This document shows positions 2,487-40,647 of a DNA stretch of 46,356 bases, piece after piece. The stretch is taken from positions 1-46,356 of the IMG/VR virus record IMGVR_UViG_3300027747_000103, one strand, 5' to 3'. The notes below the pieces were generated by a model. The model worked only from the letters and a program-made list of their open reading frames with translations. It was not told the DNA's origin and made no database searches. This stretch comes from a virus. A program made the position numbers and the translations under genes. Positions within the stretch are counted from its first letter, which is position 1, and each line of letters begins with the position of its first letter.

Positions 2487-3377
2487 ATGAGTAATGAACT
2501 CGCAATGTTGGACTTAGGTCTACCGGCATACCTTAAAGAACTGGAACTAGATGACGCAACCAAAGCCCTGATGGGTGGTAGCGGTAGTGGTGGTATGAAA
2601 CGTATCTCCATCAAGGGCGGCGTATGGCGCATGATGGTCAACGGAAAAGAAGTTGCCAAGAATGAAGATCGTGCTATGAACGTGGTCATCGTTGCCGCTG
2701 CTCCTAAAGTGTCGCGCACCTTTTATCTCAAGCAGTATTCCGAAGGTGGTGAGCCCCTTGCACCTGACTGCTGGTCTGCTGATGGTGATTTGCCTGACGC
2801 TAAAGCAAGCATGCCGCAATCTAAACGCTGCGTGGACTGCGATAAAAACTTAGCTGGTTCGGGCCAAGGCAATAGCCGCGCATGCCGCTTCAGCCAACGC
2901 ATCGCTGTTGTGCTGGGTAATGATTTGCGTGGGGATGTGTTCCAACTTACGCTTCCCGCTGGTTCTATCTTTGGTGCAGGAGAGCCGGGCAAGTGGCCTC
3001 TGCAAACGTATGCAAAGATGATTGGTGCAAAAGGTGTTCCGGTTACTGCTGTGGTTACTGAAATGCGTTTTGATACCGATAGCGCTACGCCTAAGCTGAC
3101 GTTTAAACCTATCAAGGTGCTTGACCCCGCTGACCATAAGATTGTTATTGAGCAAGGTAAGTCTGAGTCCGCTATCAAGGCTATCACTATGACCGTGGCA
3201 GAAGCGGACGGAGCCAAGGTACAACCCGAAACTAAGCCAAGTGCCCCCGCTGCTGAGCCGAAAGCTGAAACGATTCCCGAAACGGTTCCTGAGCCAACCA
3301 AGCGCAGCGCGAAGAAAGAAGAAGAGCCGGAAGCCAAAAAGGATTTGTCCAAAATCCTTGACGAGTGGGATGATTAA
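2487..3377 (+). CDS. Putative ssDNA-binding-like protein with four cysteines and acidic tail
   Basis: 296 residues. The central part (40-205) looks beta-rich. It carries four cysteines, C95, C115, C118 and C133, that could hold one zinc ion. The last 80 residues are low-complexity Pro/Glu/Lys/Ala ending in the acidic EWDD. A globular nucleic-acid-binding domain followed by a flexible linker and acidic tip is the plan of single-stranded DNA-binding proteins such as bacterial SSB or T7 gp2.5. I infer that role from this architecture and from its place between a helicase and a primase; I do not see an unambiguous OB-fold signature. TAGGAG from the preceding stop codon is the ribosome binding site. 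It could instead be a recombination mediator. Confidence 0.5.
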   Translation: MSNELAMLDLGLPAYLKELELDDATKALMGGSGSGGMKRISIKGGVWRMMVNGKEVAKNEDRAMNVVIVAAAPKVSRTFYLKQYSEGGEPLAPDCWSADGDLPDAKASMPQSKRCVDCDKNLAGSGQGNSRACRFSQRIAVVLGNDLRGDVFQLTLPAGSIFGAGEPGKWPLQTYAKMIGAKGVPVTAVVTEMRFDTDSATPKLTFKPIKVLDPADHKIVIEQGKSESAIKAITMTVAEADGAKVQPETKPSAPAAEPKAETIPETVPEPTKRSAKKEEEPEAKKDLSKILDEWDD

Positions 3378-3379
3378 TC

Positions 3380-3610
3380 ATGTCCAAGGGTTACTCACTA
3401 CTTACATCACGAGAGATCAAGGAAGCCAATCAATCTCTACTTGGTGTGCAGCTTGGAGTAATCTGCGTTAACAAGAATATACCTGTCAAAGACGTTGCTG
3501 AGTTTTTTGAAGTAAGTCGAGTAGCGGTGTATTCTTGGTTCCGAGGCAAGACAGTTGTTTCGGGTAAACACGCGGACAAAATGCACAAGTTAATTGCTAA
3601 GTTAAGCTGA
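3380..3610 (+). CDS. Small helix-turn-helix DNA-binding protein
   Basis: 76 residues. Residues about 35-57 match a Cro/XRE-type helix-turn-helix: VKDVAEFFEVSR then VAVYSWFRGK, where the second helix would lie in the DNA groove. It begins two bases after the stop of the preceding gene. A transcription regulator of the early operon, or a DNA-binding replication factor, are both plausible. An AGCTA-GGT-TAGCT inverted repeat at 3624-3636, just after its stop codon, is a candidate operator. This link is inference. Confidence 0.65.
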   Translation: MSKGYSLLTSREIKEANQSLLGVQLGVICVNKNIPVKDVAEFFEVSRVAVYSWFRGKTVVSGKHADKMHKLIAKLS

Positions 3611-3617
3611 TGGTTTA

Positions 3618-3680
3618 AGGGGAGCTAGGTTAGCTACCGAAAAGGGCGATTACCGTCACGCCCCTGCTCACTCCTTTTTT
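3618..3680 (+). promoter_or_regulatory. Hairpin-rich intergenic element before the primase gene
   Basis: The 90-base gap between the HTH and primase genes holds AAGGGGAG (3618-3625), which can pair with CTCCTTTT near 3671-3678 using two G-U pairs. It also holds an inverted repeat AGCTA-GGT-TAGCT (3624-3636) and a GGGCG/CGCCC pair (about 3644-3663). The right side ends in a run of six T. It shares an 18-of-20-base match with the early leader (145-164 against 3658-3677). It may be a partial terminator/attenuator or a protein-binding leader; direction and effect are uncertain. Confidence 0.4.
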
Positions 3681-3700
3681 GATGACGCATAAGGACGGAT

Positions 3701-6550
3701 ATGACCACGAGGAATGAGTTTCTGACTCTGGTACTCCCGCCGCTGCACGAAGGTGAGCATTACTGCGCCTTTGGCATTAAGACGGTGGACGAGAAAGATG
3801 TTGTTCGGCAAAAGTTTGTTGGCAGCATAGAGGAGATAAGCGCACGAGCAGATGCGCTGGTTGCGGAAGGATTCAATGCGTTCTTTGCTATGGCTAAATT
3901 TGGCAACCCCAAAGATGGTCGTACTACGAACAACGCGCTATTCCTTAAGTCGTTTTATATTGACCTTGATTGTGGCCCGGGTAAACCCTATGTTGACATA
4001 GGCACGGGGCTTGTTGCCTTAAGAAGTTTTTGTAAGACTACTGGACTGCCACGCCCTACGATTGTGAAGTCGGGGTTAGGTGCGCACGTGTATTGGGTGC
4101 TGGATGCAGCTATCCCCCGCAAGGAGTGGAAGCCATACGCTGACCGCCTCAAGGGGTTATGCGTTGAGCATGGGTTTGATGTTGACCCTGCCGTAACTGG
4201 CGAAGCTGCGCGGGTACTGCGTGTGCCTGAGACCTACCACGTTAAAGACCCAACGAATCCGATTTTGGTTGAGGTACTGCATACAGCGCCTACGCTGACA
4301 TTGAGCGCGGTTCAGCAGCTACTTGCCCCAAGCGACGACATACTTAAGGCACTAGAGAAATCTGAGTACCGCCGCCCAATGGATGCGGTCACGATGGCGC
4401 TTATGGGTAGCAGCCAGTCACGGTTTAAGACCATCCTTATCAAGTCGGTAGAGGGTACGGGATGTAAACAGATACTTGACATCTTTGAGAATCAAGCAAC
4501 GGTTGACGAGCCACTGTGGAGAGCGGGACTGAGCATTGCCCAGCATTGCGTTGATCGCGATAAAGCTATCCATGTAATATCCAACAAGCACCCCGAGTAC
4601 TCGGCTTACAACACAGACCGCAAGGCCAACGAGACAAAAGGCCCGTACACCTGCGAAACATTTAAAAAGTTAAATGCCAGTGGTTGCGATGGTTGTACAC
4701 ACAAGTTTACTTCTCCTATACAACTTGGTAGGGAGATTGCCGAGGCTACTGAAGCAGATAGCATCGTCATGGACTTGGAGCCTGAGACAAAAGAACTCAA
4801 GCAATTCGTTATCCCTGCGTACCCGTTCCCATTTTTCCGTGGTAAGAGCGGTGGCATCTACATCAGGGACAAGGACAAGGACGATAACGATAAAGAAGAA
4901 ATTGTTTACCCGTATGACTTTTATGTAGTCAAGCGCATGCAAGACCCTGATTTGGGTGAGACGTTGTTACTGCGACTGCACTTGCCGCAGGACGGTGTAC
5001 GGGAATGGATTATGACGTTGCCCAATGTCCTGTCTAAAGAAAAGTTTATCGGGACTGTGGCTTCGTTTGGTGTAACCGCATTGGGTAAGAAGCAGGATTC
5101 CTTAATGTTCTACATAACTAAATGGGTGGAGACCCTTCAAATGAATTCAAAAGCAGAAAAAGCACATCGCCAGTTTGGCTGGATTGAGGACGAGTCGGGC
5201 ATCATTGTTGGCGATAGAGAAGTACGCGCCATTGAGACGGTATATAGCCCGCCATCCGCACCTACGCTGCCACTGGTTCCGCTGTTCCAAGTTAAAGGCG
5301 ACTTTCACGTATGGAAAGAAACGATCAACGCGTATGCTAGACCGGGCATGGAGTGCAGAGCGTTTGCCTTCTTCATGGGGTTTGGCACATTGCTGATGAA
5401 GTTCACCAACTTGGACGGGTTCTTACTCAACTTGGTAAGCCGCGAGTCAGGTTCGGGCAAGACCACAATCTTGCAAGCTATCAACAGTATCTACGGCAGG
5501 CCCAAGGAATTACTGCTATCCCCTAAAGATACATACAACTCCCGCATGAGCCGTCTTGGCGTGATGCAAAGTTTTGCGGTGACGATGGATGAGATAACAA
5601 ATATGTTACCTGACCAAATGTCTAATCAAGTGTACGACGTTACTTCGGGTCGTGGCAAAAACCGCATGAAGCAGCACGATAACGCAGAGCGTAGGAACGA
5701 CACCAAGTTTCAGACTGGCCTTATTACTTCGTCTAATCGTTACATTACCGATGCACTGCTGTCTATAAAGGGATTCCCTGATGGGGAACTAAAACGTATT
5801 TTAGAGATCAACATAAAGCCCGATCCGTTTGACGATGCGACATGGGCACGTGAACACTTTGGTAAGTTGATGAACAATTATGGGCATGCCATTGAGCCGT
5901 TCTGTCAGGCAATAGTTTCGCAGCTACCGATGGTCAAAGAGAAGCTATCTGAAATGCAGGCACGGATTGAGCGCATTGGGGAGATTAAGAACGCCGAGCG
6001 TTATTGGGCGTTGATGGCTTCCCTTGCTATGACTGGCGGCGCGATTGCTAAGCAGCTTGGACTGCACGACATTCCAATCAAGCCGGTTTTTGACTACTCC
6101 ATTGAGTTAATTAAGGAGACCCGTGTACGTAACCGCGAGTACATGTTTGACAGTGATGACTTCTTGGGCGGCTTCTTGCAACGGCATTTCAACGAAATCT
6201 TGGTTATCAACGGTACTAAGGACGGACGCACTGGACTAGATAGCGGGCCGGTTAAGGAACCACGGGGCGCGTTGACTGCGCGGTATGAGCCGGATACCAA
6301 AATGCTATACGTTGTAACCCGTAGCTATCGTGAAGATTGCGGTAAAAACTTTACCAGCTATGAGGACTCGCTGGCTCCATACCGTAAGAGCGGCGCGTTA
6401 GTCGGGCAGAAGAAGAAGCGTATGACTGCTGGCACGACTGCTAACACCCAAGCACCAGTAAATGCTCTGTGCTTTGACACGACTAAGCTGGAGTTCTTTA
6501 ATGAGAACGTACTGCTAAGTGAAGATTCTGAACCTACCCCTGCTGATTGA
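3701..6550 (+). CDS. Primase-helicase fusion (AEP-type primase plus P-loop helicase)
   Basis: 949 residues. The N-terminal third resembles archaeo-eukaryotic-type (PrimPol/RepB-like) primases: FYIDLD with acidic D88 and D90, then SGLGAH with H129. A middle region holds several Cys and His (near SGCDGCTH) that may bind zinc. The C-terminal half resembles DUF927-type or D5-like superfamily 3 helicases, with Walker A GSGKTT at 584-589 and a Walker-B-like MDEIT about 50 residues later. Such fusions prime and unwind at phage replication origins. The start ATG 3701 follows AAGGA at good spacing. No DNA polymerase gene is visible here, so that enzyme must be elsewhere in the genome or come from the host. 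The exact family of the helicase half is less sure than the overall assignment. Confidence 0.82.
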   Translation: MTTRNEFLTLVLPPLHEGEHYCAFGIKTVDEKDVVRQKFVGSIEEISARADALVAEGFNAFFAMAKFGNPKDGRTTNNALFLKSFYIDLDCGPGKPYVDIGTGLVALRSFCKTTGLPRPTIVKSGLGAHVYWVLDAAIPRKEWKPYADRLKGLCVEHGFDVDPAVTGEAARVLRVPETYHVKDPTNPILVEVLHTAPTLTLSAVQQLLAPSDDILKALEKSEYRRPMDAVTMALMGSSQSRFKTILIKSVEGTGCKQILDIFENQATVDEPLWRAGLSIAQHCVDRDKAIHVISNKHPEYSAYNTDRKANETKGPYTCETFKKLNASGCDGCTHKFTSPIQLGREIAEATEADSIVMDLEPETKELKQFVIPAYPFPFFRGKSGGIYIRDKDKDDNDKEEIVYPYDFYVVKRMQDPDLGETLLLRLHLPQDGVREWIMTLPNVLSKEKFIGTVASFGVTALGKKQDSLMFYITKWVETLQMNSKAEKAHRQFGWIEDESGIIVGDREVRAIETVYSPPSAPTLPLVPLFQVKGDFHVWKETINAYARPGMECRAFAFFMGFGTLLMKFTNLDGFLLNLVSRESGSGKTTILQAINSIYGRPKELLLSPKDTYNSRMSRLGVMQSFAVTMDEITNMLPDQMSNQVYDVTSGRGKNRMKQHDNAERRNDTKFQTGLITSSNRYITDALLSIKGFPDGELKRILEINIKPDPFDDATWAREHFGKLMNNYGHAIEPFCQAIVSQLPMVKEKLSEMQARIERIGEIKNAERYWALMASLAMTGGAIAKQLGLHDIPIKPVFDYSIELIKETRVRNREYMFDSDDFLGGFLQRHFNEILVINGTKDGRTGLDSGPVKEPRGALTARYEPDTKMLYVVTRSYREDCGKNFTSYEDSLAPYRKSGALVGQKKKRMTAGTTANTQAPVNALCFDTTKLEFFNENVLLSEDSEPTPAD

Positions 6551-33251: not shown

Positions 33252-34081
33252 GTAACCGCCTGCCTGTATTGACCACTACGATATGCGTCTTGACGTTCCA
33301 TGCCATCTGCCAAACGCTTAGCTAGGGTAAGGGCTTCTTTGTACTTACCATCGTACAACGCAATTAAGTCAGCCTCACCCTTCATGAAGGTGTACGCTTC
33401 TACCAGTGAGCCGTACAGCAACACAGTGTCAAAGTTATCGCCAAGCCAAGTAGTACTTGCTGTGACAATAGACTGAGGGTAATAATAGTAGTGCAGTTCT
33501 AAAGAGTAGACCGCATCAGGGGTTGGCCCCAAAATGAACGAGAGTTCGTTCACATCATTGCTTTGAGAGCCAAATAAAGCGTAGTACTTAGGGATGGCAG
33601 TATCGGTAGGTATTGGGTACGCCTGACGAATAAAGTTAACATCCTTGTTCAGCAGGTACTCGTATGCGCCCGTAGCGTCAATTACTGCCATCGAATACGG
33701 GGCTAAAAAGTCAGCAGGGCAACCCACATACTTATTGTTAACTGAGGTAGAACCCGTCACATTCTTGCGAATGGATGGGAATTGCATTGAGTTGTAGATG
33801 CGCTGTTCCGCTTGCTGGATGAAGCGGTTGATCTGATCCGCAGATGTCGAAGTCAGTAGCGCCGTACCGGTTCCAGAACCTACTCCAGTAGCCGTAAAAA
33901 CTACACCAACGGTATTGGCAGAAGCACCAATCGCTACAAAATTGGTTGTACCAACTGCTGTAATTGTGTAGCTTGACCCAACAGTAAAACTTCCAGCCGT
34001 ATACGAACTTGCAGTAGTAATCGTCGGAAAAAAGTTTTCCGTATAAGTTTGTATTGCGGACGAAAGTTCAGCGTAGTTCAT
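33248..34081 (-). CDS. Putative head-to-tail connector/tail-adaptor protein with inserted domain
   Basis: 277 residues. The N-terminal helix (NYAELSSAIQTYTE) and C-terminal helical region (ALTLAKRLADGMERQDAYRSG) with Asp/Tyr-rich loops resemble phage connector or tail-tube A proteins. Between about 25 and 75 sits a beta-type insert including GTTNFVAIGASANTVGVVFT then ATGVGSGTGTA, a module that recurs inside unrelated phage structural proteins. The 310-residue neighbour has a similar insert, so both probably lie on the particle surface. Start/stop overlaps link it to genes on both sides. Confidence 0.62.
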   Translation of the reverse strand: MNYAELSSAIQTYTENFFPTITTASSYTAGSFTVGSSYTITAVGTTNFVAIGASANTVGVVFTATGVGSGTGTALLTSTSADQINRFIQQAEQRIYNSMQFPSIRKNVTGSTSVNNKYVGCPADFLAPYSMAVIDATGAYEYLLNKDVNFIRQAYPIPTDTAIPKYYALFGSQSNDVNELSFILGPTPDAVYSLELHYYYYPQSIVTASTTWLGDNFDTVLLYGSLVEAYTFMKGEADLIALYDGKYKEALTLAKRLADGMERQDAYRSGQYRQAVT

Positions 34082-34341
34082 GCCATCGGGCCTCGTGCCA
34101 TCACGCCTTTAGTAGCTGCGCCAGTACCACGGATTTTGATACCATCGGTCTTAATTTGCTCATCACCAGCGGACTTGCTAAACTGACCAAGAGAAATATC
34201 GTTGGTTTCTAGCTTGCTGCGATTGGGTTCTTTACCGGGGGTAGAAGAAATGCTCATGGCACTACCATCCATCGTATGCGGTTTTGCATAGACAGTAGCA
34301 GAGCCAACTTCTTTGCCGCCTTGTTTCATAGTGTACGCCAT
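34078..34341 (-). CDS. Small protein of unknown function
   Basis: 87 residues, polar, with Gly/Lys/Ser and few hydrophobics, probably extended or partly disordered. Begins MAYTMKQGGKEVGSATVYAK. ATG overlaps the stop of the upstream gene by four bases and its own stop overlaps the connector gene start (ATGA). No motif recognised; its position in the small-protein cluster suggests a minor virion component. Confidence 0.6.
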   Translation of the reverse strand: MAYTMKQGGKEVGSATVYAKPHTMDGSAMSISSTPGKEPNRSKLETNDISLGQFSKSAGDEQIKTDGIKIRGTGAATKGVMARGPMA

Positions 34342-34548: not shown

Positions 34549-34977
34549 CTATGAAACCGTTATCGTTACTGTACCAATTTGTACGCCTAATGCCAAATAA
34601 TTCGGTGTTAACGCCGCATCAAAATACCTAGACCCACCAACTGGATTCCAACCCCACTGAATATCCCTAGACCCAATAGAAGGATACCCAAAAGCATTTA
34701 CATTGTTGCTATTATTATCCAAAATCTGTAGCCCAGTTTGCCCAGCCATCAAATAACTTACATCTGGCCTTGGCTCCCGTACTGCTTGTGGGTCATTGAC
34801 TGGATACATACCCAATAGCAATTGCGGATGGTCAGGATCCCAACAAGTCTTACAAACTTTTACCTTAAAGGGTTTGGTTTTTACTGTTTGTGTCCTAAGC
34901 TCTTTTAACTTATAGCGTTGCCCGCACCGGTCACATTCGGCAATTGCAAACTTACCGGAAGCAAACCGATTAGGCAT
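34549..34977 (-). CDS. Zinc-ribbon structural/connector-region protein
   Basis: 142 residues. Two CxxC pairs, C15/C18 and C42/C45, form a probable four-cysteine zinc ribbon in the N-terminal third. The rest is beta-type, ending with a strand IGTVTITVS. The frame is open to 34998, but ATG 34977 gives the usual MPNRFASGKF start and overlaps the stop of the 310-residue gene by 8 bases. A zinc ribbon in the neck region may stabilise a small tail or head protein; it could also be a regulator. Function unknown. Confidence 0.62.
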   Translation of the reverse strand: MPNRFASGKFAIAECDRCGQRYKLKELRTQTVKTKPFKVKVCKTCWDPDHPQLLLGMYPVNDPQAVREPRPDVSYLMAGQTGLQILDNNSNNVNAFGYPSIGSRDIQWGWNPVGGSRYFDAALTPNYLALGVQIGTVTITVS

Positions 34978-35902
34978 AGAACATGTTCCTTGGAACAAAT
35001 CTTAGCGGCGATGTATCCCGGTCTTCCGCAGAAGCAATGTCCCACTGCTGCTCATATTCCATCTTCAATGCTGTGACTCGATCAGGGCTTACATCAGGCA
35101 GCTTCATGCCCAATTGATAGGCCAACCCCGCAACCATGCAGGGGATAAAACGGAATGGAATATCCTGTACGCTAACACCAGTACCAGCGTCTTGAATCCT
35201 ACGCATGCGGTAATACACCAGTGTGTACTGGTCACCCGGTGCATTAGGAGTAGGCCAAATGTTGACACATGGGGTGTTTTGTACAATCAATGACGCACCA
35301 TTAGCATGGGTTGCAGCAGTCGTATTGTTCTGCCCACGGGCGCAATTAACCAACTGGTTACCTACGATGTTAGGGTAACTGATAATTTCATTATCTATTT
35401 GTATAAACCCAGAAGTAGTTAGATTAACTACTGAAGATACCGTAATAGTCGTAGCTGTAGCCGTAATCCCACCTGTTTGGTTTATAACAATACTTGTTGT
35501 ATTTTGCTGGCCCGATTGGCGGTTGAACCACATCTGGATTGGACGACCTTGAGCCAACTTGTTAGGGATGCTCATGTACGTAGGTTCAGCAATCCGGCTG
35601 ATGTTGATATCAATCTGGTTGGTAGTACTGTTGTTCTGGCGGATAACAGAATCCAAGATATCAATCGTATTAGCTGGTAAGGGGTAAATAGCTTGTCCAG
35701 TAACTAGCGGAATTTGCCCTTGCTCTACCGTCCAAAAGTTCAACCCACGGTTAGCCCACTCAATCGTCAAAATGTTTAACGAACGGCGAGCAGTGCGAAA
35801 GTTGTATCCAGTACGCAACTCTTGACCGCAACGCTCAAACGCCTCTTCAATGAGGTCGTTCATGTCGAGGTTAAAGGTCGTCGTACCGGTGGTATTAGCC
35901 AT
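34970..35902 (-). CDS. Putative tail-tubular/connector protein with inserted domain
   Basis: 310 residues. N-terminal helical part (FNLDMNDLIEEAFERCGQ then RRSLNILTIEWANRG) and C-terminal helical part with PFRFIPCMVAGLAYQLGMKLPD resemble phage tail-tube A/connector proteins. An inserted beta module from about 140 to 210 includes ITVSSVVNLTTSGFIQIDNE and CARGQNNTTAATHANGA, a recurrent phage surface domain. Its stop overlaps the zinc-ribbon start by 8 bases and its own start overlaps the upstream stop in TAATG. It probably joins the portal to the tail. Confidence 0.62.
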   Translation of the reverse strand: MANTTGTTTFNLDMNDLIEEAFERCGQELRTGYNFRTARRSLNILTIEWANRGLNFWTVEQGQIPLVTGQAIYPLPANTIDILDSVIRQNNSTTNQIDINISRIAEPTYMSIPNKLAQGRPIQMWFNRQSGQQNTTSIVINQTGGITATATTITVSSVVNLTTSGFIQIDNEIISYPNIVGNQLVNCARGQNNTTAATHANGASLIVQNTPCVNIWPTPNAPGDQYTLVYYRMRRIQDAGTGVSVQDIPFRFIPCMVAGLAYQLGMKLPDVSPDRVTALKMEYEQQWDIASAEDRDTSPLRFVPRNMFYA

Positions 35903-36135
35903 TATCTAAACCCTGCTGTTTTCTTTGCTATGGTTTTGGGCTGCGCCACAAACTGTTTACCTGCTGCCTTACCCGCACGTTTAGCTTTAGTGGTAGCTGC
36001 ATATTCGGCAGGGCTAAGAGATTGTATAGCTTTCTCAGGCAAATATCGCTCACCTGTTTTCGACGAAGGCTTTCCCGACTTGGTGCGCCATTTCTGGTCA
36101 CCCCAATTTTTAAGGGATTGCTGCGGCGCTTTCAA
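35902..36135 (-). CDS. Small basic protein of unknown function, TTG start
   Basis: 77 residues with strong positive charge (many Lys/Arg). It begins KAPQQSLKNWGDQKWRTKSGKP and contains GERYLPEKAIQSL, then AKRAGKAAGKQFVAQPKTI. I know small basic proteins of this pattern from other phages but cannot name a function; nucleic-acid binding is likely from composition. The only start fitting the frame is TTG at 36135, overlapping the upstream stop as TTGA. The ribosome binding site is a poor GGGGGA. Confidence 0.58.
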   Translation of the reverse strand: MKAPQQSLKNWGDQKWRTKSGKPSSKTGERYLPEKAIQSLSPAEYAATTKAKRAGKAAGKQFVAQPKTIAKKTAGFR

Positions 36136-36407
36136 TCTCTATATCCCCCACCCGCTGCTTTATAGCGTTTAGCTACAAGCTGTGCTTTACGTGCTGACCA
36201 TTGCCCTGCGCCAGTGCCTTGGGTAGCCGCTGCCTTTACTTGGGCCACAATCTTCTTACGAAGGCTGGGCTTGGTGTAGTTACCCGCAGCATTTACCTTA
36301 CCGCCCTCTTTGTACTGCGTGAAGTCAGTACTATCCCTACGAGGGGTTTTTTTCCCCCCGGGCATTTTGGATGGGGCGATATCGCCCATGCCCCGGCTGG
36401 GTCTCAT
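36132..36407 (-). CDS. Small basic protein of the DUF5872-like type
   Basis: 91 residues. The C-terminal half VNAAGNYTKPSLRKKIVAQ and AGQWSARKAQLVAKRYKAAG resembles the DUF5872-type domain known from large DNA viruses, where it is of unknown function; I hold this match only loosely. The N-terminus is basic and Gly/Pro-rich. The frame is open to a GTG at 36431, but ATG 36407 overlaps the stop of the upstream gene as ATGA and is preferred. It may bind DNA in the particle. Confidence 0.6.
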   Translation of the reverse strand: MRPSRGMGDIAPSKMPGGKKTPRRDSTDFTQYKEGGKVNAAGNYTKPSLRKKIVAQVKAAATQGTGAGQWSARKAQLVAKRYKAAGGGYRD

Positions 36408-36637
36408 TTTTTGTACATCCCGCCGCCGCACATAACAATAGTGCCACGGGTCTTACCACGCTCAGCACAACCATCAGCACGGGCAGAAGCGGAACCGCCT
36501 TTAGCCATGCGTTTAACAGGTTCATCTACTGGAACTGAATCTGGGTAGATTGGTGGTTTAGGGGTTGGTTTAGGCTTAGGTTTCTTAACCACGGGCTCAT
36601 CCACTGGAACAGAATCGGGATATTTAACGTCAGCCAT
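36404..36637 (-). CDS. Small protein with repeated PDSVPVDEP and C-terminal GKTRG tag
   Basis: 77 residues. The N-terminal half has two copies of YPDSVPVDEPV separated by a Lys/Pro linker, a simple repeat. The C-terminus has MAKGGSASARADG, then CAERGKTRGTIVM and a short CGGGMYKK. The ADG...GKTRG tail is shared with the next two genes. TAAGGAG formed with the upstream stop is the ribosome binding site. Function unknown. Confidence 0.6.
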   Translation of the reverse strand: MADVKYPDSVPVDEPVVKKPKPKPTPKPPIYPDSVPVDEPVKRMAKGGSASARADGCAERGKTRGTIVMCGGGMYKK

Positions 36638-36646
36638 AAGGGCTCC

Positions 36647-37147
36647 TTAGCACATTTTTCCACGGGTTTTACCCCGCTGGGCAATACCATCGGCGCGGCG
36701 GGAAGCGGAACCCCCAGAAGCCATCTTTTTAACTTTGCCACCACGCTTCATAGAATTGCCAGCCTCATCACTATTACCACTGCTTAAAGCAGCGCGAGCG
36801 GCGGCATTAGGGTCACGGCGCGGGGCATAGTTTTTCATAGATGCATCGCGTTTAGCCATTGCATCTTGTTTGTCCACCATTGCCTTACCACTTTGCGTGT
36901 ATTGATCGCGTGGAACATAAGCTGCTGTACGCTGTAGGGGCTGCCCACTTTCGTCAAGGCCACGGTTTGCATTGTCCTGAGCTTCCATAGTCATACGGTC
37001 TTGCGCACTAGGACGAGGAACGTATACACCAGCTTTAGTGCCTTCCGGTGGTTTCATAGTTAATTTGCGCTCTCTATTCAAGAACTCCCGCAAAGAGGAT
37101 GCGCCAGAATCGTCCAGTTCTTTTTGGGAAATAATACGATTTGCCAT
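36647..37147 (-). CDS. Small charged protein with ADGIA-GKTRGK tail
   Basis: 166 residues. A charged N-terminal half (ISQKELDDSGASSLREFL then RERKLTMKPPEG), a middle with many Arg/Asp/Gln, and the tail MASGGSASRRADGIAQ then RGKTRGKMC. It is probably mostly helical or disordered. The frame extends to 37174, but ATG 37147 is preceded by TAAGGAG at ideal spacing, and TAA there is the stop of the preceding gene. The tail is close to those of its two neighbours. Function unknown; minor virion protein possible. Confidence 0.6.
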   Translation of the reverse strand: MANRIISQKELDDSGASSLREFLNRERKLTMKPPEGTKAGVYVPRPSAQDRMTMEAQDNANRGLDESGQPLQRTAAYVPRDQYTQSGKAMVDKQDAMAKRDASMKNYAPRRDPNAAARAALSSGNSDEAGNSMKRGGKVKKMASGGSASRRADGIAQRGKTRGKMC

Positions 37148-37157
37148 GATTAACTCC

Positions 37158-37559
37158 TTAGCACTTACCGCCACGTTTCATCATAATATCTTTACCTTTG
37201 GTCTTACCTTTGGAGGCAATGCCATCAGCAGACTTATGACCAGATGACAAGCCACCAGCAGCCATCTTCTTCATGCCGCCTTTTTTCATGCCCATCATTT
37301 GTTTCTTATCTAGTGCCATGTCAGCTTTAGAGCCTTCTTTCATGCCCTTTTTCTCAACATCTTTACCAGACTTCTCAAATTTTGCAAAGGGATTCACACC
37401 TTTTGTAGCCATCTCACCACCTCTTTTAAAAGTTTTGCCTTTATCGGCCTTGCTGAAATCTTGCCCCACAGACTGTGGAACCCCTACCTTCTTGGCAAAC
37501 GACGGCGAGTGGGCTATCGCTTCCATGAAATTGTGTTGCTTCTTGCTACTGGACGGCAT
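37158..37559 (-). CDS. Small basic protein with Met/Gly/Lys-rich tail
   Basis: 133 residues. N-terminus SKKQHNFMEAIAHSPSF then AKKVGVPQSVGQDFSKADKGK, a pattern I recognise from other phages without a known function. The rest is Lys/Gly/Met-rich, with KKMAAGGLSSGHKSADGIAS then KGKTKGKDIMM at the end. The tail matches those of the next two genes. Its start overlaps the stop of the membrane protein upstream by 14 bases. Confidence 0.6.
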   Translation of the reverse strand: MPSSSKKQHNFMEAIAHSPSFAKKVGVPQSVGQDFSKADKGKTFKRGGEMATKGVNPFAKFEKSGKDVEKKGMKEGSKADMALDKKQMMGMKKGGMKKMAAGGLSSGHKSADGIASKGKTKGKDIMMKRGGKC

Positions 37560-37744: not shown

Positions 37745-37999
37745 TCAGCATTTCCATCTTGCTAGTGAAGCCGCCTTACGGGTAGGCTTACCTTTTTCGT
37801 CTTTCATCGGGCCGGGCATACCAGACATGCGGGCGCAGAATGACTTCTTGCGAGGGCCACCTTCGGGCTGTGGAGCCTTCAGATTAGACCCTGTTGCTGC
37901 GTTGTACTTAGCACGGCCTTTAGCAGTAAGACCAGCCCCTTTAGAGACGGGTAACTTTTCACCACGACCTACTGCAAGGGATGGGTTTTTCTTAGCCAT
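37745..37999 (-). CDS. Small basic Cys-containing protein of the DUF6321-like type
   Basis: 84 residues, strongly basic. It contains GAGLTAKGRAKYNAATGSNL, then a KSFCARMSGMPGPMK region and ends RWKC. I recall this layout as DUF6321, an uncharacterised family, but hold that name loosely. Its start overlaps the stop of the gene upstream by 8 bases (ATGGCTAA). Small basic nucleic-acid-binding virion component is a reasonable guess only. Confidence 0.6.
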   Translation of the reverse strand: MAKKNPSLAVGRGEKLPVSKGAGLTAKGRAKYNAATGSNLKAPQPEGGPRKKSFCARMSGMPGPMKDEKGKPTRKAASLARWKC

Positions 38000-38925: not shown

Positions 38926-39297
38926 ATGCCCTTCAAAGACCCAAAAGTTCACAAGGCGAAGCACAAGGAGTACTCTGCAAAGTACTACGAAAAGAACAAG
39001 GAAGCCGAAAAAGCGCGAATTAACGAGCGACGCAATGGCAAACGGAAAGAATGGAAAGCCTACAAAGCCAGTCTATCCTGTTCTAATTGTGGGTTTAATC
39101 ACCCTGCCTGTATAGACTTTCACCACCCACCGGGAACCAAAGAACACAGCGTTAACGAGTTGGCCCAAAATGGCCGGTACAAACTAGCATATAAAGAAGC
39201 GGAAAAATGCATAGTTTTGTGTTCAAACTGCCACCGTATCCATCACTACAATGAAAGACAAAAGAAAAAGGAGGCCAAAGCCTCCCAATCTGGGTAG
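38926..39297 (+). CDS. HNH endonuclease, free-standing, opposite strand to neighbours
   Basis: 123 residues. A basic N-terminal helical part (KDPKVHKAKHKEYSAKYYEK) would hold DNA. The HNH domain has C52xxC55 and C99xxC102 to bind zinc, H66-H67 as the catalytic His region, and H106-H107 near the end, spaced as in HNH nucleases. The gene is the only plus-strand gene within the late region. Free-standing HNH genes are usually homing endonucleases that copy themselves between related phages, cutting sites in the neighbouring region. AAGG precedes the ATG. No promoter of its own is obvious; it may be read from a plus-strand transcript of unknown origin. Confidence 0.8.
   Translation: MPFKDPKVHKAKHKEYSAKYYEKNKEAEKARINERRNGKRKEWKAYKASLSCSNCGFNHPACIDFHHPPGTKEHSVNELAQNGRYKLAYKEAEKCIVLCSNCHRIHHYNERQKKKEAKASQSG
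39262..39287 (-). terminator. Strong intrinsic terminator inside the HNH gene
   Basis: On the minus strand GGAGGC-TTTG-GCCTCC is followed by TTTTTCTTTT. Six G/C-rich base pairs and a 10-base pyrimidine run make a good intrinsic terminator for the acidic-protein gene that ends at 39310. It lies within the last 40 bases of the plus-strand HNH coding sequence, where it reads as Lys/Glu/Ala codons. Confidence 0.78.
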
Positions 39298-39309: not shown

Positions 39310-39612
39310 TTAAGCAGCGGACTCTTCCTCTTCGGCTTCATCTTCTGCAACTTCTTCGCACTCGTACCAGTCGTCAGACTCTTCGTCATACGCGTACCAA
39401 ACTTCGTTTTCTTCATCGAACCAGTAGGCCACGCCTTCTTCGTCATACACATACTCTTCGTCAGCAAACTCTTCGTCAGCAACCTCATCGCCTTCATCAA
39501 AGTCTTCTAGGCGCTCTACAAAACCCGCAACTGCCACGGCTTTCCACAATGCATCTGTAGAAAACTTAACTTGCTCACCAAAACCAAAATCAATTGTCAG
39601 TGTGAATTCCAT
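39310..39612 (-). CDS. Extremely acidic, aromatic-rich small protein
   Basis: 100 residues, of which about 40 are Asp or Glu and only about 3 Lys or Arg. The first 35 residues look like a small beta/alpha fold; residues 36-100 are acidic with regularly spaced aromatic residues, for example WFDEENEVWYAYDEESDDWY. A large negative surface with aromatic insertions recalls DNA-mimic proteins such as T7 Ocr, but no family can be shown. The start ATG 39612 follows AGAGGT; the frame is open to 39669. It is isolated between two terminators, so it is probably its own short transcript or read from the head operon by leakage. Confidence 0.58.
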   Translation of the reverse strand: MEFTLTIDFGFGEQVKFSTDALWKAVAVAGFVERLEDFDEGDEVADEEFADEEYVYDEEGVAYWFDEENEVWYAYDEESDDWYECEEVAEDEAEEEESAA

Positions 39613-39689
39613 GATATACCTCTGTAAAAATGCCGCAGCACGGCGCTGCAACCACATCCTACGAGCCATTTGTGACAGTTTTTGGGCGT

Positions 39690-39735: not shown

Positions 39736-40647
39736 TTAAGACGCGCCGGGAGAACCGTACATGCCCAGAGGATCAGACCAGCCGAAGCTGTAACGCTCAC
39801 GAGCCTTGTAACGGACATTGCCGGTATCAAAGTCGCCGTCCATGCTGTTAGCCAGCGGAGTACGAACAAAGTGCTTCATGCCGTTTGGAACGTCAGTGGT
39901 CAAATACCAGCCGTTCGTGTCGGTCAAGAAGTGATTGATCGTGTAGCCACCGGGGATCGAACCGTTGTTCTTCAACGCATTGACATCATTGTCAGTGGTG
40001 CCGACGCGGAGTTCGGTTTCCAACAGACGAGTAGCAACGAATTGCAGAGCAGGAGGAACAATCAACTTAGCTGGTTTAGCAGCGATCAACAGGCCACGCT
40101 CATCTGTCCAAGCGGCGATCTGGATAACTGCGTTTTCCAACGAAGTCTCGTTCAGATCGGCTGCAACAGCGGGAGTGTTGCTGTTAGTACCACCGTTAAT
40201 CAGCGGGTGAGAAGCACTGAACAAAGCAACGCCATCGCCGCCGGGGTAAGCCGCCGAGAAGCCATTGTTTAGAACAGCAGCAGCTTTAACCTGCTTGGTG
40301 TACGCCATAGCACGAGCCAACGATTTGGTGTAACGAGCGGACAAGCTGTCATACAGATTGTCTTCGATTGCCTCTTCCGTCAGGGAGAAGCCCAAAGCAA
40401 TGGTTTCGTGGTTGTAGCGTGCAGTCCATGCCTCTTGTGCATTGTCATAAGCGATGGCAGAGCCCTCGTTCTTAACAGGTGCAGCAGAGAAGCCAGACAG
40501 CTTTGTTTCTTCTTCAAAAGAACGCTCAGAGGTTTCAGTTTCATAAATTTCTTTATGTTCTTCACCATAACGGGCGTACTCCAGACCGAACAAAGCATTC
40601 AGGCCGGGGAGCAACTCTTTAAGTAGTTGTGCGCGTGAAATAGCCAT
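39736..40647 (-). CDS. Major capsid protein (HK97-fold)
   Basis: 303 residues. It starts MAISRAQLLKELLPGLNALF, has the N-arm-like YETETSERSFEEE, a central region with ALGFSLTEEAIEDNLYDSL and the DGVALFSASHPLI strand, and a C-terminal PLGMYGSP. The pattern (E-loop-like beta hairpin followed by spine helix and A-domain) matches phage major heads of the Mu-like or HK97-fold group. About 300 residues is typical. A scaffold gene lies two genes upstream. The next-downstream hairpin ends transcription here. Ribosome binding site TAAGGAG contains the stop of the upstream gene. Confidence 0.85.
   Translation of the reverse strand: MAISRAQLLKELLPGLNALFGLEYARYGEEHKEIYETETSERSFEEETKLSGFSAAPVKNEGSAIAYDNAQEAWTARYNHETIALGFSLTEEAIEDNLYDSLSARYTKSLARAMAYTKQVKAAAVLNNGFSAAYPGGDGVALFSASHPLINGGTNSNTPAVAADLNETSLENAVIQIAAWTDERGLLIAAKPAKLIVPPALQFVATRLLETELRVGTTDNDVNALKNNGSIPGGYTINHFLTDTNGWYLTTDVPNGMKHFVRTPLANSMDGDFDTGNVRYKARERYSFGWSDPLGMYGSPGAS

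Follow-up and report, generated by a model that had tools for sequence, protein, structure and literature searches.

A short peptide tag, of 15-20 residues, is shared by three adjacent genes of IMG/VR virus record IMGVR_UViG_3300027747_000103, a stretch of 46,356 nucleotides which is referred to here as the window. The tag has the consensus KGG-x-S(A)S-x-R-ADG-[IC]-A-x-[RK]-GKT-[RK]-G-[KR]-[MIF]-[VC]. We give an even chance to the reading that it is a clade-specific C-terminal virion-targeting tag, carried by variable and mostly disordered internal proteins that would be packaged in the particle. The fuller statement falls a little short of an even chance; it holds that the C-terminal sorting tag of a large freshwater phage clade loads disordered basic proteins, in a set that is open-ended and rapidly replaced, as a cargo system separate from that of phage T4. 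A loading signal for virion cargo is proposed because the peptide is fixed and terminal, its place in the late head operon is fixed, and the bodies that carry it are basic, disordered and fast-changing.

The three tagged genes are arranged head to tail on the minus strand; the capsid gene lies on one side of them and a gene for a 310-amino acid (aa) protein on the other. Protein A (77 aa, 36404..36637) has a Pro/Lys-rich body in which YPDSVPVDEP is repeated, and a net charge of +6. Protein B (166 aa from its ATG, 36647..37147) has a net charge of +13; an upstream GTG would give a protein of 175 aa. The stop codon of gene B directly abuts the Shine-Dalgarno-like GGAG of gene A. Protein C (133 aa, 37158..37559) has a net charge of +19. 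A single-sequence AlphaFold model of protein B contains no confident domain, with a mean predicted local distance difference test score (pLDDT) of 59 and a predicted template modelling score of 0.18. In the AlphaFold model of protein C the N-terminal MPSSSKKQ module is helical with pLDDT of 71-91, and the linker and tag are of low confidence.

Each of the three proteins contains MA[KSA]GG followed by ADG-x-A-x-x-GKT-x-G, so the common tag and the Met-Ala-Gly-Gly-like stretch before it, both of which had been read from the letters alone in the original prediction, are present in all of them. A back-translated, degenerate DNA pattern of the tag has three matches in the window and none in 100 dinucleotide shuffles. 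The matches are the minus-strand tag cores of A (ADGCAERGKTRG, 36444..36478), B (ADGIAQRGKTRG, 36660..36694) and C (ADGIASKGKTKG, 37195..37229). The tag had been placed at the C-termini of all three proteins, and this is strictly the case in B alone, which ends in RGKTRGKMC. Protein A runs on past RGKTRG with TIVMCGGGMYKK, an extension ending in GGGMYKK, and protein C runs on past KGKTKGK with DIMMKRGGKC, an extension ending in GGKC. This longer form of the tag, ending in GG-x-C or similar, is also present in many relatives. The bodies were said to be otherwise unrelated, and they do differ: they fall into separate BLAST clusters, and the DNA similarity of genes A and B (74 nucleotides, 76% identical) covers the tag and linker only.

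Many other uncultured viruses carry the tag. One pattern scan matched at least 120 IMG/VR contigs, and head genes are shared with the window in 117 of the first 120 loci. This first scan, two further pattern scans and three capsid-based scans made up the locus set, in which a tag profile picked out 789 distinct tagged proteins, encoded on 322 IMG/VR contigs. The tag is C-terminal in 726 of the 789, and it ends no more than one residue from the stop codon in 508. Together with one isolate genome described below, these contigs answer the suggestion that the tails might be absent from other phages.

Tags are confined to the late head operon and come after the major capsid gene. In the window this gene encodes a phrog_371 protein (39736..40647, minus strand), and throughout the clade all tags are downstream of it, at a distance of about 2-8 kilobases (kb). 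They are found there in 32 of the 34 loci, window included, that extend downstream of the capsid gene for 4.5 kb or more. The two loci without a strict match are L209, which has a shortened tag, GGLVGIESKGKTKCKMR, and L159, which ends before the region. Over all 81 panel loci, 94 tags are downstream on the same strand, one is on the other strand, and none is present in 392 kb of upstream sequence. In 14 contigs of 49-87 kb every tag lies within one small cluster. In 269 of 724 cases the tagged gene has a stop codon that shares nucleotides with an ATG, which suggests that the tagged gene and the next gene may be translationally coupled.

Conservation of the tag was measured in loci picked by capsid protein alone, since the first scans had selected on the tag. 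The conserved residues in this panel are D (88/90), G (90/90), G (89/90), K (87/90) and T (90/90), and R and K interchange freely at the basic positions. These counts bear on the strongest alternative, which is that the tag is a nucleic-acid-binding tail. Its basic, Gly-rich RGKTRGK would then bind phage DNA, and the tagged proteins would condense the DNA or neutralise its charge with no protein partner. The tag and bodies are strongly basic, and AlphaFold predicts no confident fold for the tail, as this explanation would have it. However, pure charge would not preserve the D, T and G residues, or the A, while R and K are exchanged freely, and the RGRP core of the AT-hook is absent from the consensus. 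We regard a nucleic-acid-binding tail as unlikely but as a live rival.

Two known motifs were considered and rejected. The tag fits a Walker A P-loop (GxxxxGK[ST]) by eye; the Lys varies, however, being H in 3/90 with GRT and GHT variants, and no NTPase fold can follow a tag that ends the protein. The AT-hook was rejected because the tag consensus is RGKTRG, with an invariant T and no Pro.

The bodies to which the tag is attached are highly variable. The 726 C-tagged proteins have bodies in at least 199 single-linkage clusters, 147 of which are singletons; 199 is a lower bound, because short modules in common link up the members of the largest cluster (278), which contains both B and C. Tagged proteins commonly number 2 to 5 per genome, with unrelated bodies. 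Among 66 bodies outside the main SKKQ family, 27 have no homologue in the 33 other panel loci and most others have homologues in three or fewer. By contrast, the conserved neighbours are present in 32/33 (an adaptor-like gene), 33/33 (DUF6321) and 31/33 (phrog_17747) loci of the capsid panel. The bodies thus turn over fast among phages with capsid proteins that are 87-93% identical. With the tag removed, 97.9% of 195 body clusters are net positive, compared with 44.7% of 532 untagged nearby open reading frames (ORFs). Disorder-promoting residues make up 62% of the bodies and 52% of the large window proteins, and Cys is nearly absent from the bodies (4% of clusters).

Fast-changing bodies could be surface features, and the tagged genes adjoin the position of the cement protein. 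The tag might accordingly anchor proteins on the outside of the capsid, with their variable, disordered bodies displayed at the surface. This is improbable, given that the bodies are nearly all basic and disordered, not folded Ig-like or sugar-binding domains, and that some have hydrophobic N-terminal segments. Less probable again is that the tagged proteins are scaffold-like or chaperone-like assembly factors, which would use the tag to bind the head or portal and be lost from the mature particle. Scaffolding proteins have coat-binding ends, and the tagged proteins resemble these in being disordered and basic with a short C-terminal binding element; the position in the head operon also fits. 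Assembly factors are normally conserved and single, however, whereas here several unrelated bodies per genome are rapidly replaced.

Recent duplication of whole proteins had been named in the original prediction as another source of the shared tails. The tag-core DNA is 63.8% identical within contigs and 62.7% identical between contigs, and in both cases the DNA further upstream is unrelated. Whole-gene duplication is therefore excluded as the general cause: the bodies are non-homologous, and sharing a contig does not make two copies more similar. The third codon positions of the tag vary freely while its residues are fixed, which shows long selection on the peptide; the tags are old and selected at the protein level. 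That the tag is a spreading sequence cassette with little function of its own, copied onto neighbouring genes by recombination within the tag, is very improbable in view of this selection and because just 4 of 546 within-contig pairs are at least 95% identical, although three of these pairs come from L067, where one and the same tag DNA recurs in three successive genes whose bodies differ (3132-4302, minus strand). The L067 genes look like a case of recent tag copying or body swapping, and suggest that tags sometimes spread through local recombination.

The tag is detachable. DUF6321 proteins end in WNC or WKC in some phages, and in others WNCADGGYVTAADGCATKGKTKGRMV or a very similar sequence follows. 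The tag is carried by 32 of 89 DUF6321 proteins and 55 of 73 SKKQ proteins in tag-bearing contigs. The DUF6321 protein of the window (37745..37999, minus strand) is untagged; in homologues from the clade the tag follows the terminal W[NK]C immediately. In phiKZ the SKKQ module of protein C stands by itself (PHIKZ165.1), and in CBB and other jumbo phages it begins proteins that have a virion structural annotation. DUF6321 and SKKQ (phrog_16759/22033) are like the tag in being short modules of the same gene cluster, and both also occur as fusions to larger phage proteins, a number of which are annotated as virion structural. They differ in being domains, of about 45-70 residues, with a wide distribution among cultured phages; the ADG-GKT tag has fewer residues, is restricted to the clade and is added onto them.

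At 75-80% capsid identity the tails merge gradually into a wider class (RGDGACMKGHTKGRMV, RGGGCEIRGKTKGRMV and RGAGAATKGKRYGRAG). Some of these tails are on LysM proteins (E-values 2e-13 and 2e-14), one is on an HNH nuclease and one is on a DUF6496 protein. The wider-class tails and the ADG-GKT tag are likely to share descent. LysM proteins with RGxGAATxGK tails are encoded in the same operon downstream of the capsid gene in L317, L346 and L308, where the capsid proteins are 77-78% identical. In L380 an HNH_3 nuclease domain with an RGVGRAVQG tail is encoded 1267-1633 downstream of the capsid gene. LysM is a domain expected to bind the cell wall, and the LysM cases suggest cell-wall contact during entry. 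The window itself encodes an 87-aa protein ending in DGIKIRGTGAATKGVMARGPMA (34078..34341, minus strand), which, judged by eye, is like the wider RGxGxAxxG tail class; similar tails are found on LysM and other proteins of remoter relatives. One body in DSL-LC04 looks like a tagged family and has a different KGG tail, and repeated tails in DSL-LC04-type phages were not above the internal control.

Packaging, localisation and DNA binding had been put forward together as functions of the tag. Of these, packaging in the form of virion targeting is favoured, because of the head-operon position, the positive bodies, their rapid turnover and the LysM domains on related tails. Targeting is further supported because the SKKQ module sits in annotated virion structural proteins. 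The tag would act as a short C-terminal recognition peptide that steers late proteins, small, basic and for the most part disordered, into the virion during assembly. It would do so by binding a fixed partner, which may be the capsid protein, a scaffold or the portal. The tagged proteins would most likely be brought inside the head and delivered with the DNA. Such a partner would constrain the tag and leave the bodies free to change, as in the T4 internal proteins.

The internal proteins of T4 are diverse and injected, and have only a capsid-targeting sequence in common (PMC3012670; PMC12373910). Ip1, Ip2 and Ip3 of T4 inhibit host restriction enzymes (PMC3012670; PMC12373910), and the bodies of the tagged proteins may likewise have an anti-host role. 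In both systems one short conserved tag is attached to very different small basic bodies (IPI, IPII, IPIII and Alt in T4), several are present per genome, and the bodies change quickly between related phages. The T4 tag, however, is N-terminal and is removed by the prohead protease. By strict membership the present tag is not a T4-type signal, because it is C-terminal and unrelated in sequence. In addition, packaging and injection are proven for T4, whereas here packaging is deduced. The tag can also be likened, by description, to the cargo-loading peptides of encapsulins, short C-terminal peptides that are considered to direct cargo into an HK97-type shell. Encapsulin cargo consists of folded enzymes in a cellular compartment; the bodies described here are diverse, mostly disordered and phage-encoded, and a Pfam scan of 188 body representatives gave one match only, to DUF6321.

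Several points weigh against the virion-targeting reading. For a tagged phage, neither virion proteomics nor a structure was found, and the binding partner of the tag is postulated. The T4 tag is cleaved, and no cleavage is known for the present one. Nearly all bodies lack a known domain in the Pfam scan, and none of 100 had a defence-related match in a PADLOC scan. The position of the tag is not absolute, since in one family (cluster 1, 21 contigs) a tag-like motif is N-terminal; this small conserved family (MAYKSGADGITKQGKTKGKNLGNDG) is present in L057, L028, L046, L062, L106 and others. Finally, the tag is a clade feature and not a general phage mechanism, because its prevalence drops steeply with capsid divergence: it is present in 33/36 loci at 85% capsid identity or more, 5/26 at 75-80% and 1/28 at 60-65%.

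Should the tag prove to be a loading signal, it would provide a sequence handle on phage proteins that are invisible to homology searches, in at least 199 body families, nearly all of them unannotated. Metagenomes could then yield candidate injected proteins in the hundreds from abundant, uncultured phages, and the tag might offer a route for loading these capsids with foreign proteins. A loading signal would also suggest that the T4 plan of a tag with variable cargo arose separately in podovirus-like phages.

The tag belongs to one clade related to HTVC023P- and Pam1-type podoviruses. The nearest isolates and the names of metagenome-assembled genomes (MAGs) suggest that this is a clade of freshwater phages. 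The capsid family and the gene order from portal to adaptor are the same as those of the head module in HTVC023P, CRP-901, DSL-LC04 and Pag-Yong1. Among the relatives scanned, however, only Pag-Yong1 has a recognisable tag, on one protein, whereas members of the clade of the window mostly have 2-5.

Pag-Yong1 is one of three names (with MinM2 and Pra-JY27) under which a single tagged isolate genome has been deposited; it was found by a profile scan of fetched records. Its tagged protein (UMO75986.1) is Pro/Ala-rich, has 308 aa, is encoded between the cement and adaptor genes and ends in YASGGMIGRDGCAKRGRTKGRFI. The three records (OL906435, OQ594354 and PP438419) are all exactly 65,014 bp and encode an identical tagged protein under three names and three cyanobacterial hosts, and are possibly one phage or a shared contaminant. 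When the tag (21 and 28 aa) or the whole of protein C was used for tBLASTn, none of 50,697 phage records matched the tag. BLAST misses diverged tags, as the profile scan found the Pag-Yong1 tag that tBLASTn had missed, so absence from isolates is not fully established. In GTDB genomes 11 contigs match the pattern and only four have real tags, three of which represent the same phage group inside MAGs. The fourth is in a Patulibacter MAG (L136:162-2003), where an acyltransferase-like ORF at the contig end runs into a perfect tag; this is probably an assembly chimera. No mention of RGKTRG as a peptide, or of DUF6321, was found in the literature searched.

The tagged cluster of the window is bounded on its far side by the gene for the 310-aa protein (34970..35902, minus strand). 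This occupies the head-tail adaptor position of isolated relatives, and is assigned as a putative adaptor by position. The small, basic, conserved phrog_17747 protein is encoded at 36132..36431 on the minus strand. A very acidic 119-aa protein (39310-39669, minus strand, net charge -31) adjoins the capsid gene and contrasts with the basic proteins around it; it has homologues in just 3 of 33 relatives. Between the capsid and cement-like genes there is an ORF on the opposite strand (38926-39297, plus strand) whose CSNC...DFHH...CSNCHRIHH looks HNH endonuclease-like, and a similar ORF is found in the same place in L159 (1838-2206, minus strand).
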